Source: Tribonema minus (Eukaryota; Sar; Xanthophyceae; Tribonematales; Tribonemataceae). Taken from it: a DNA stretch of 64,000 bases. Shown here piece by piece: positions 14,829-23,800 of this stretch. A program made the position numbers and the translations under genes. Position 1 is the first letter of the stretch; the number at the start of each line of letters is the position of its first letter. The notes beneath the pieces are model-generated. The model had not been told where the DNA came from. It did no database searches and saw only the letters and a program-made list of their open reading frames with translations. The DNA lies in assembly GCA_017506865.1 (NCBI GenBank), contig JAFCMP010000548.1:124001-188000 (forward strand), written 5' to 3'.

Positions 14829-17800
14829 ATGACGGAGGACGGCGGGAAGAAGACTGTGCTCAATCCCACTACCACGGAGCTGCGTGGCGCCTACAGCAAG
14901 CTCCAGCAAGAACGAATATCGAGCAAATGTATCAAGCCAAAGATCATCATGGCCAGTCCGTCGCAACTAAAGATGGTGAGCTGGCTAGCGCGCTTCAATC
15001 GATGGCAGTTGATTGTGCTTATGAACGTTCGGCGCAGAAGCGGGGTAGCCAGCTTGCGCTTTGCAGCTAATCTTTTGTTATTTTGCACCAAAGATTTGAA
15101 TGCCGCTCCCCCGCGATGCTGTTGCCGCTGAGAGGTACGATGTCCAAAAGAGGCGGTGGCCATCCTAATCAAAGCAGCCAAGCATGTGCGCGCTCGTTGC
15201 CGCTTTTTACTCGACTCATGGTAAAGGTAACTTGAATAAATTGCTTCGACTGGTACGACCCGTTCTGTTCAGCCAGTTTTTGCGCCATGAATCCAGGCGT
15301 GAACGTGAAGCCGCATTATGTACTGCGCTCTGTGGCAGTAGCTGTTTCGTCGGCCTGACCAACTTGATGTCTCCTGCAGCGCTAGCGACCAGTGCAGGTA
15401 TACTTTTTCAGCAGACTGCTAAGAGTGGCCCAGGCAGCAGCAGCTTGAACTCTGATAGTAATGCTGCAGCGCAGCTGCTCTCATCATCCTCTGCTGGTGT
15501 TCCTCACGGTGTTTCTACCTCGCATGGATCTGCCTCTGTCTTCACATGTTTTGCACACCAAATCACGCGAACAGCGGCTGTTCTAACCCACCTGTCTCGC
15601 ACCATACACATGCCACTTCCTCCTGCGCAGGTCGAAAGGGAAGCGCTGGGCGCCAAAGACCACCATGACCGCGTCAAGGCCCTCTTCCCCAAGACCTTCG
15701 GCCTGCCCAGGGTGGAGCTGGAGATTGGAGCGGAGGCGGACACCCCCCACCCCCCCCTCAAGGTGGGGGTGGTGCTGAGCGGGGGGCAGGCGCCGGGGGG
15801 GCACAATGTGATTGCGGGGGTGTTTGACTACGCCATGAAGGCCAACCCGGACAGCAAGATCTACGGGTTCCTGAACGGCCCGCACGGCGTCATGAACGGA
15901 GTGTACTGCGAGGTGGGACACAATTTACAAATCATAAGAAAATTGTGTATCGTCGGCGCTGTGATCGGACATTGGTGGCCTGGTGATTTGATATCATACC
16001 TCTTCATGGTTTGCGACGTTGAAGATCGTACGCCGCAATGTGACTTGACACTTTGTAGACGCGGTGGTCATGGTGACCAAGATTTTGTGCAGATGGAAGC
16101 AGCAGCTGTCGCCCACACACTCATGTATGGGTCAGGTACTCGTTTGTTTGGCCAGCAAATCCATGACTTCTGGTCAAATACGGCTGTCACAGATTGACGA
16201 TTACTATTTTGTTGCAGTATGCATTTGTACTCAGTAATGCTGTGCTATGATCAAAACCTGCCGATTGCACTCCAGTGCAAATCCTTCTTAAACATAAGCA
16301 GGTGTGCACTGAGTGCAAGAGACAATGAATATTGCTGGCAGCAATGTGGATCACAATGTGCTGAATTGTTCTGGATCGCTGCTCGCACGCACTATATAGC
16401 CGCATTTTCGCTCAACTTTGGAATGCACCGGCAACATGAAGAATTGCGCGCTTCAACAGCAACAGGCTTTTGAACCGTGTACTGTAAGACGTAGTAACAG
16501 CACACTTGCACCAGATTGCATAAAACTCACCATGCCAATTGTATTTCGCTTCAACACATGCGCCATTTGGCCTTCTTGAAAGTATATGCCCACTCTATGC
16601 ACGGCTGAAGGTGGCACCCACGGGACACCACTGAACGCTCCACCCCTTGCGCCGCACCCACCGCCGCCGCCGCCGCCCGCAGATCGACCAGGACATCATG
16701 GCGTACTACCGCAACACGGGCGGCTTCGACATGCTGGGCAGCGGGCGCGACAAGATTGAGAGCGAGGCGCAGATGGCCTCCTCCATGGCCGTCGTAACCG
16801 GAATGGGCCTCGACGGCCTCGTGGTCATCGGTGGCGACGACTCCAACACCAACGCGGCGATACTCGCCGAGTACTTTGCCGCGAACGGCTGCGCGACCAA
16901 GGTGTGCGGCTGCCCCAAGACGATCGACGGCGACCTGAAGAACGAGTACATACCCATCTCGTTTGGCTTCGACACGGCGGTCAAGACGTTCAGCGAGGAG
17001 ATTGGCAACGTCGCGCTCGACACGCTCGCCAGCCAGAAGTACTACCACTTCATCAGGTGACGCTTGCGTTTTTTTGTTTTGTTTTGACAATTTGCGCCCG
17101 CGTCGATGACTTCAACAGTTGGCACTCGCATCAGCCGCTGCCTGGTTCGTTTGCCTTTGCCAGAGGAGCACGTGCTGAACCGGCTACATATGTGATATAT
17201 TATGTGTTGTGTTTACGCATGTTTGTGAAGCACACAAGTATGCAATCAAGGCTGACATCAACTGTCACCATGTCAACAATAGCATCGGTATGCTTGCGCT
17301 GTGAGCAATCCGCGCAACGGTTGCGTCTAGATCAGTGCTGCAGCTGATGAAGGGCACCAATTCAGTTAAGATTGCCGACAACAGTCAACATGCCTGTAGC
17401 GCGAGCTGTCCATGAACCAGGACAACCCCATGATACAGATTGCCCGTCCTGCCTCCACTATCTATAAGCGCGTGATCCCAACGATACAGTGGTCCTTATT
17501 AGTGTACTTCCCGCTGCCACATCACCGCAGGCTCATGGGGCGCGCGGCGAGCAACATTGCGCTGGAGTGCGCGCTGCAGACGCGGCCCAACATGTGCTTG
17601 ATCTCGGAGGAGGTGGAGGCGAAGGGCATGAACCTGCTGCAGATCACGCACGACATTGCCGACATGGTGAGACTGCCGCGCCATGAAATCACGAATATGA
17701 ATTCATCCATGAATGCACAAGTGCGACTTCATGAACCTGACTTCCTGCGGGGCACGCTGCTTTAGCAGCGTAGCAATGCAAAGGTGCGACCCCTCTGCAC

Positions 17801-20800: not shown

Positions 20801-23800
20801 ACGGCAAGGACAAGCCCGTCATCAAGAAGGCGCTGGTGGACCTGGAGGGTGCGCCGTTCAAGTGAGTTGAAGTTGAAAACTTGAACTACTGTTACAGACA
20901 CATAGATGCCCTTCGCAAGTTGTTAGTATCTTTTTATGGTGGTGCAGCGCCCTTCAAGTGAGTCGCTGCTAGTATTTGCCGTGCAAACAGTGTCAAAGAT
21001 ACACAGCTGCCCTTGCGAACTGTTACTAATTTGGTTTGGTGGTGCAGCGCCCTTGAAGTGAGTTGCTGGTAGTAGTTTTTGTGCAAACAGCATTCCAGAC
21101 ACACAGATGCCCTTCGTAAGTTGTCATGCTTGTGCAGCGAGGAGAAGACCCCAAGGCGAGGCTGGGCTTCAGAGTTCCCCAGGCGTCATCAATGAGTCGT
21201 CATTGCTTGCCTTTCTCAGTTTGTGTCGAATGTAGCCTCTGCTGAGCAGTGCCACAAGAATACCACTGCATAGTTGTTTAACCAAGCTTTGCGGGGAACA
21301 GGTGCGCCCCCGATCTTCAACATGCTCTATCGATGCTCTTGTCGCACAGCTGGCAATTGCGCACTTGCGCACCCTTAAAAGTATATGTCTCACCAGCAAG
21401 TCTGAGACTCTGCCAAAGCGAGCTTGTGGAGTGCATCAGACATACCAAGCGCGTTGGCGCCATCACGTTTGGCCAGATCTCAGACTATTGGCAGTGTCGG
21501 TGTCAGCCGTCACCTCTGACCACCATCATGCATTCTTCATGGCATGCCCCTCTGGAAGATACGTCAATCACGTCTGTCAAGAAGATCTGTCAAATCACCA
21601 CAAGCTCCCCCCCCTTCGCGCACGCACCTACCCCGCTCGCAGGGCCTTCGCAAAGCGCCGCGCGCGCTGGGCGCAGACCGACGTCTACCGCGCCCCCGGC
21701 CCCATCCAGTTCTACAGCGCCGGCGCGCGCGACACCAACATGACACTCATGTACGAGCTGCTGGGCGACGCAGCCGATGACATTGCTCAGCTGGACCCGC
21801 CTTGCGGAGCCGCGGAGGCGCCTCAGGTGCGCGGGTCGAGCGGCATGCTGTACCGCCCCGTCGGCGTGGCGATGCGCAGCAAGGTGGAGCAGAGCCGGCT
21901 GGGGTACGAGCCCAAGGTGCGTGCTGCGCTGGTGCTGCGGAAGGAAGCGGAAGCTCTCACAGTGAATGGGCCTTCTCTACAGCGTGATGGCGATGCTTAG
22001 GTGCGGCGAGGTGCGGCGCGCGTCGCGCGCTGCCGTTGCGAAAAACAATGCAGAAGCCTTCGCTGTGAATGCGCCTTGACATTGTTGCTGCAGTGAGTGC
22101 AAGTGCGAATGTGTGTGTGAGCATGTGCTTGGGAGAGGGGGCATGTTTCATTAATTACCGCGGCAGTCCACACTGATGTGGAGCAGGGCCGAAAGGGTGC
22201 CTTACATGGGGGGCATCACTAATTGAAAATCAACTACTCGGAAGGGTGCAAGCCTGTGAGCTTTGGTATTGCCGGTGTTTAAAATGATGTTGACTCATAA
22301 AAAATCCTCAAGACAACATGATTGTGATCTAGCGAGCTGGGCATGGTTTAACGTCACCATGACGCCATTTTGTTCAAGAACAGCAGCCTCCAGAGTGAAT
22401 GTGACCCGCAGGCGCAGCTGATTTCTGTTCACAAGTGCTTACCTCAGCGCTTTTGGGTGCTGGCCGGCCTACACATGGGCTGTGCGCGTTGCTCGCCAGC
22501 CTGTGCACTGCTGACCTTGCGCCTCATGCAATATCGCTGGCCGTGCGTCGCGACCCCAGGTGCCACCCGCCCTGCAGGCGCGGTCCGTCATCAAGGTGTC
22601 CTTCGAGCAGGACGAGCCAACGCAGGTGCGTCACTTCAATTTTGTCACTGAGCGCTGCTCTGTGCATCTATGTCGCGGCAGCACTGTCATGGTCCACATT
22701 GCAATATCTACTTGATGTACACCGCTGGGTGAAATTGGCATGAACCGTGTGCACGCCGCAGGCGTCTTGCGTGCGCCGTGGCATGCAGAGCAGTTGCAGC
22801 GCCAACCTAGTCCGCACCTTATGCCACACACGTACGCAGACACACACACAGGTGCACAGCTGCGTGTAGTTCAACAATCCACTTGCGAGCTGACGTCGAC
22901 GCTGTCTAGCGCAGCCAGCGCGTGCCCTCAGCCGCTCATGTTTTTCTGTGTGCGTGCGGTTGCTGTGCCTGGCGCGTGTCCTTCCGTCAAATTCCGTCAA
23001 GGCACCATGAAGAGCACGCTTGCCCTCAGTCGCCGCCGCTAGCCGCTCGCGTCTGATACCTAAGCCACCACTTGCTGTGCTGTCAGCCCATGCACGCTAT
23101 CCTCTGAAGCTTTTTGTGCTGCTCTGAGCTCCTATCCGCCGCTCATAACGCCTTGTCACCCCACGTTTCCACTTCTGTCAGTGCATGCCGCTGCCATCTG
23201 ACCCCCCTCAACCCCCCCCCCGCCCCCCCCATGCGCGCGCGCGCAGTGCCTGCACCCGCGCGACGCCGGCGTCATCAGCCACATGTTCCCGCACACGTAC
23301 GGCGCGCAGCTGCTTCAGATTGCGCCCGCCGACAAGGCCACCCCGTCGCGGCCTCAGCCGCTGCGTGTGGGCGTCTTGTTCAGTGGCCGCCAGGTGAGGG
23401 GCGCCACAGTGGTCATTAAATCTGTACGCCGCGAGAGCGCCATATAACATCTGGTAGCATTTGATCATGTGCTATTTATTGTCCAGCATTGGTGCAGTGG
23501 CACACGCGCCATGATGAGTGAAAAAAACGAGCACTTGGAGTAAGGGTAAACGTTAGGGTTAGATAATGAGCGGGTTGCGCATGCCCAGAGGTCATCATGC
23601 ACTCCGGAAACGCATGAGGGCTCGCGCGTTTGCTAGATTTGGCTGTGCACGCGCCATGCGCGTCTGCAAGCAGAATTGAGTTCTGTGACATCATGGCGTC
23701 CGCGCCCTGGGCACGCTGCATGCGCTGCTCAGCGGGGCTGACGTGTTGAGGCATGCTACATGCACTCAGTCAGAAGAAAACGGCTGCCGCTACATTCATC

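Follow-up and report, generated by a model that had tools for sequence, protein, structure and literature searches.

Short tandem arrays, intronic minisatellites among them, consist of head-to-tail units of a range of ages. That introns can be gained through tandem genomic duplication is accepted (PMC3443670), and in the classical model the duplication of an exon segment bearing AGGT creates a new intron. In a related case, the potato RdRp gene (Ma et al. 2016; PMC4974935), a duplicated intron end and exon start gave rise to a new intron and a new exon. We analysed a 64,000-nucleotide stretch of the xanthophycean Tribonema minus (contig JAFCMP010000548.1, positions 124,001 to 188,000 of the forward strand; hereafter the window), in which a gene on the + strand, with exons matching the pyrophosphate-dependent phosphofructokinase (PFP) family TIGR02477/NF005482, holds in its introns additional copies of the edges of its own exons. 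As in minisatellites, the units lie head to tail and are of mixed ages; here, in contrast, they are longer (~160 bp), the copies are few and the exon edge is one constrained member of the array. With intron gain by tandem duplication (PMC3443670) the locus shares short duplications within a gene and copies that bear splice signals, but its units lie across a junction that already exists, and the extra copy falls within an intron already present. The potato RdRp unit (PMC4974935) has the same anatomy, an intron end joined to an exon start, as those at the starts of exons 6 and 7 described below; in potato the copy was turned into a new intron and exon, in a single gene, whereas here the copies remain intronic and occur at many junctions. 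A literature search over titles and the starts of abstracts, which left most subscription journals uncovered, returned papers on intron gain, clinical work and other subjects but no description of edge-straddling arrays as a genome-wide feature.

The copies are probably remnants of ordinary short tandem duplications of the kind that arise in non-coding DNA across this genome (158 Mb in 554 contigs). The sample on which this conclusion is based comprises the window and 250 kb of further sequence from the genome, mostly from two contigs, and its exons and junctions are predictions of a simple gene finder self-trained on the sample, not transcript-based. The gene finder yielded 148 confident exons and 271 splice junctions over 304 kb, a total that excludes the segment L026 (C1:20001-30000), which was also left out of the rate tests; two thirds of L026 was scored as coding, a share not seen elsewhere in the sample.

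Exon-edge copies are real in the introns of the window PFP gene, all of them on the + strand. The p values come from comparing 60-base exon probes with non-local chunks of 900 bases each, 298 in all, taken from the sample. The 3′ end of exon 4 (first-pass numbering; 17531..17666, from the gene finder and edge probes) is copied downstream in two clearly decayed forms at 17778..17824 (score 18.3; p = 1/299) and 17963..17992 (score 18.0; p = 1/299; repeat D5). The start of exon 6 (19493..19735; TIGR02477 E 6.7e-25) has copies at 19235..19288 (8/52 nt unlike the exon; score 38; p = 1/299) and 19381..19434 (2/52 nt unlike; score 50 of a perfect 54; p = 1/299), and behind each follows the same non-exonic tail, which is common to both window copies and to a paralogue of the gene. 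The start of exon 7 (20734..20861, the end being taken from the sequence and the score of the donor GTGAGT at 20862, where the gene finder placed it at 20848) has one copy (20566-20618; score 45.8; p = 1/299), held in a duplicated unit of ~170 bases that also includes the intron end (20436..20618; repeats D2 and D7). At the end of exon 7 the exon part alone, ~14 bases, is not significant (p = 0.12), and three clear units of ~100 bases follow one another from the end of the exon into the intron (repeats D3, D4 and D8). The first contains the last exon bases, the real donor and the intron start (20851..20946; D4 and D8), and the second and third (20947..21046 and 21047..21137; both D3 and D8) each carry a decoy GTGAGT; the three donors score 6.3, 6.3 and 5.9. 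Results for the start of exon 5 (18565..18813; TIGR02477 E 2.9e-27) were marginal (p = 0.013 and 0.027 before multiple-test correction), and it is not secure that a direct repeat of ~82 nt in intron 4 (18242..18323 and 18436..18518; repeats D6 and D10) derives from it. The first-pass annotation had listed copies at five edges; of these, the end of exon 4 and the starts of exons 6 and 7 have clear copies, the array at the end of exon 7 consists of three units that contain little exon, and the exon 5 start is marginal. No significant copy was found at five other window edges, namely exon 2 start, exon 2 end, exon 3/4 start, exon 5 end and exon 6 end (p = 0.11-1.0).

To place these copies in a wider setting, each 40-base exon-edge probe of the sample was compared with its adjoining intron, with a score of at least 18 counted as a copy and the chance level taken from 1900 non-local comparisons. 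An intronic copy of the own exon edge was seen at 34/271 predicted junctions, where 0.14 was expected, while probes from exon middles gave 4/271 and reverse-complement probes 2/271. The most extreme case was a second PFP copy, the paralogue, at ~79 kb to 100.5 kb of contig C509, with copies at 15 of its 30 junctions. Outside both PFP genes, copies were found at 14/181 junctions distributed over several genes; the junction C509:100291, in the last exon of the paralogue, is excluded from this set and from the non-PFP set of the ratio tests below, but was counted as non-PFP in the sliding-probe analysis. One of the non-PFP genes with copies has an ANTH-like exon, below the curated cut-off, and the other non-PFP exons scanned had no Pfam match. 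At C509:219719 and C509:227213 (L017 and L018), 7.5 kb apart, the exon end, intron start and intronic matches are identical, and this pair is probably a recent tandem gene duplication. A genome-wide search with the Helicase_C profile showed one clear exon-end-like array among 110 matches (G000:C157:539404-539933, three partial matches ~190 bp apart that end at the same profile position, 107), and a search with the HSP70 profile showed no clear array among 81 matches, neighbouring exons overlapping in the profile by at most ~19 positions. Such profile scans are weak for this purpose, short decoys probably being under their detection reach.

The two PFP genes also give a view of the age of the introns. 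Along 15631-29582 of the window, TIGR02477 is matched twice (profile positions 34-537, then from 36 again and further on 221-280), and the gene seems, from its sequence, to encode two PFP domains in tandem. The first homology-supported exon of this putative two-domain PFP (diphosphate--fructose-6-phosphate 1-phosphotransferase) lies at 15631..15912 (TIGR02477 E 1.1e-27; gene finder), a further PFP exon at 16683..17056 (NF005482 E 2.9e-58, TIGR02477 E 9.9e-57, PF00365 E 1e-15), and the coding exon after exon 7, at 21644..21916, contains the end of the first domain (TIGR02477 positions 500-537). Among the 16 window PFP exons of at least 80 nt, 12 could be paired with a paralogue exon and four had no pair; two of the pairs differ in predicted end. 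Because 10 of the 12 paired exons keep the same predicted length, these introns are older than the paralogue split. Synonymous divergence between the paralogues is pS 0.33 overall and 0.16 in exon 6.

The anatomy of the copies is that of tandem duplication. They stand in direct, head-to-tail order, 41-541 bp apart (median 160 over 53 neighbour spacings), up to four beside one exon edge (at most four per edge were sought), and reach a median of 53 nt into the exon (45 copies). Similarity on the intron side exceeded that of unrelated introns in 30/45 copies, the remaining 15 having no significant intron-side similarity, and homologous inter-unit intron segments (at least one pair, several pairs per array being tested) were present in 23/32 arrays, a count in which six arrays lacked a testable pair. 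These results indicate that a unit straddling the junction was duplicated in tandem. They also reject, for most cases, copies that begin exactly at the splice junction. Duplication of whole exons, as in tandem or mutually exclusive exons, does not fit the short exon reach and the rarity of exon-middle copies. Five junctions in repetitive or low-complexity coding sequence (36762, 119719 and 127213 of the C509 segment, 5344 and 6120 of L028) were dropped from the intron-side, inter-unit, decoy-decoy, codon and indel, splice-site, spacing and repeat-density counts. The splice-dinucleotide and spacing counts also omit the paralogue junctions 11860 and 14555, where the predicted donor is seemingly misplaced. 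Decoys below 20/40 were left out of the intron-side, codon and indel and splice-dinucleotide counts and of the comparison of spacing among edges, introns and intergenic DNA, and those below 16/40 out of decoy-decoy identity, inter-unit homology and neighbour-copy spacing.

The decay of the copies shows no sign of protein-level constraint, which we reject on codon mismatches and indels, yet there was no stop in 448 codons. Mismatches at codon positions 1, 2 and 3 were 61/802, 67/792 and 102/791, the third-position excess being as expected from silent changes in the exon itself, and 28 of 31 indels break the frame. Splice dinucleotides persisted in many decoys, with AG retained in 19/24 on the acceptor side and GT in 12/18 on the donor side, which bears out the earlier proposal that introns grow longer, and acquire decoy splice sites, by local duplication occurring again and again.

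We then asked whether exon edges differ from the rest of the non-coding DNA. With a sliding probe, the rate of copies stayed level along introns and did not climb near the junction; it peaked within the first 40 bases of the exon and was down to 9/581 at 80 nt or more into exons. Per 10 kb there were 6.0 repeats of similar spacing in introns, a figure that includes the decoy arrays, and 2.8 in intergenic DNA. Their median spacings were close to one another, at 168 for the decoy nearest to an edge (n = 27), 160 for intron repeats (n = 87, decoy arrays included) and 164 for intergenic repeats (n = 29), and Kolmogorov-Smirnov (KS) tests did not separate introns from edges (p = 0.16) or from intergenic DNA (p = 0.29). 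A spacing of ~160 bp is close to the nucleosome repeat. Two other features of the sample's sequence were that runs of at least 8 C or G abound (in 314 kb, 338 overlapping matches for C and 280 for G) and that TTAGGG arrays lie inside introns, adjoining predicted exons.

The edge rate was compared with the intron rate one-sidedly and with equal targets, at probe scores of 16-22 unless a higher score is stated; low-complexity probes were excluded here and from the sliding-probe analysis. Outside the PFP genes the edge/intron ratio was 1.2-1.4 with decoys counted as intron, which lowers the ratio, and 1.8-2.2 with decoys left out; over all genes it was 1.7-2.1 with decoys counted as intron. When a simulation keeps the exon unchanged and lets the rest decay neutrally, the predicted ratio is 1.9-2.1 at every threshold. 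The clustering at edges outside the PFP genes is therefore about what is expected from a uniform process combined with exon constraint. The PFP genes exceed this expectation, the window gene being the site of discovery and the other having been chosen as its paralogue. The comparison with intergenic DNA that the first-pass annotation had proposed gives a divided answer: introns hold about twice the intergenic density, and the excess of edges over introns is roughly as expected outside the PFP genes, except among near-identical copies.

We propose that an ordinary tandem duplication, with a unit mostly of 90-300 bp and a median near 160, could arise anywhere in non-coding DNA, and that a unit spanning an acceptor or donor would leave an extra exon edge with its flanking intron inside the intron. 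The intact junction beside the real exon would remain usable and the gene would survive. Selection would hold the exon half of the pair, which would then decay at half speed and stay recognisable about twice as long; edge-spanning units would seem over-represented because their exon half is constrained. Duplications inside exons would be purged, and copies of exon interiors would consequently be rare. On the predicted exons, the tandem layout, the homology on both sides, the unconstrained decay, the similar spacing elsewhere and the near-neutral counts outside the PFP genes are matters of observation; the mutational origin, by replication or repair error or by unequal exchange, and the purging we infer.

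Several results weigh against simple neutral decay as a complete account. With decoys left out, the edge/intron ratio over all genes rises to 2.4-3.4, above 2.0. Among near-identical copies (score at least 32/40) it reaches 10 (14/244 vs 9/1617) with decoys counted as intron and 16-17 without them, and outside the PFP genes 8.0 (6/181 vs 5/1205) and 12-13, respectively, all far above 2.0. Identity between decoys of the same array was 0.80 in their exon-like and 0.65 in their intron-like parts, unrelated introns giving 0.57; the exon-like value was the higher in 16/16 arrays and 31/36 decoy pairs, and the difference over arrays, 0.185, compares with 0.065 from simulated ascertainment (0/4000 resamples). 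The exon-6 array is colinear in the two paralogues and its decoys differ by only 3/52 and 8/52 between them, against the overall pS of 0.33; it aligns end to end, non-exonic tail included, with a score of 233 compared to 29-86 for six other homologous introns. The excess of near-identical copies, the fresh exon-like halves and the conservation of this array together suggest that neutral decay is not the whole story.

The excess of near-identical copies and the higher exon-like identity between decoys favour concerted evolution, in which the sequence of the intact exon is written over its decoys again and again, through gene conversion or unequal exchange. This explanation, which is compatible with an origin by tandem duplication, is possible, though we hold it only tentatively. 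The exon-6 array is common to the paralogues, yet in three of four cases (over both genes) the decoy lies within 1-2/52 nt of its own exon. The window copy of the exon 7 start is 1/45 from its own exon and 7 from the paralogue exon, which fits a separate origin, whereas the paralogue copy has the same distance, 5, to each of the two exons. Among copies found through the intron side, a reversed ascertainment, exon-like identity was higher in only 8/15, and this test does not confirm the repeated copying from exon onto decoy at which the other data hint. Conservation of the non-exonic tail behind exon 6 is not given by exon-templated conversion alone, and faster decay of intron-type sequence would produce the same picture. 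In the simulation, a match to the observed difference needs an exon-like change rate of ~0.3-0.5 of the intron-like rate, but the simulated identity between decoys in their exon-like parts stays at 0.72-0.73 at any rate tried and never gives the observed value. Conversion from the exon is therefore our leading addition to the tandem-duplication account, held but not as established. That exons act as standing templates which repair intronic decoys, with fresh edges and their splice signals persisting through gene duplication, is a further step that we consider rather doubtful.

It is unlikely that some edge copies are kept by selection for use as alternative or poison splice sites in the regulation of the gene. 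The alignment of the exon-6 decoys between the paralogues, together with an upstream pyrimidine-rich stretch and the tail, would agree with this idea, as would the scores of five decoy sites in the window, four of which are no more than about one unit off that of the real site. On the other hand, the splice dinucleotide is gone in 5/24 acceptor and 6/18 donor decoys, nearly all indels are frame-breaking, and at the aligned junction AG is missing from one of the exon-6 decoys of each paralogue (in the window decoy an AG stands one base further along, but its score, 1.5, is low).

We regard as similarly improbable the first-pass proposal of a duplication process that acts at exon edges; splice-site breaks or R-loops would be candidate causes. 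The survey agrees with it in the contrast between edges and exon middles and in the paralogue with copies at half of its junctions, and so does the ratio over all genes with decoys left out. Outside the PFP genes, where the ratio does not rise clearly above the expected 2.0 under either way of counting, such a process is not needed, whereas within them it may have contributed; moreover, unit size is similar in introns and intergenic DNA, and intron probes do not increase towards the junction. Introner-like or other mobile elements carrying exon edges would account for copies that occur in many introns and bear splice signals, but they are very unlikely, as the units are head-to-tail and carry each gene's own exon sequence, and the exon-6 region (601 bases, the single region tested) matches the genome only at its own locus and the paralogue, with no dispersed multi-copy family and no element boundaries.

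About one in eight sampled junctions has a copy of its exon edge in the adjoining intron. The conservation of exons alone makes edge duplications look about twice as common as they are, and claims of enrichment at edges need to be corrected for it. If the pattern holds genome-wide, the rate at which decoy splice sites originate, the speed of their decay and the spliceosome's choice of site would become measurable. If exons do serve as templates for their decoys, the decoys would be a lasting source of new exons and of alternative splicing.

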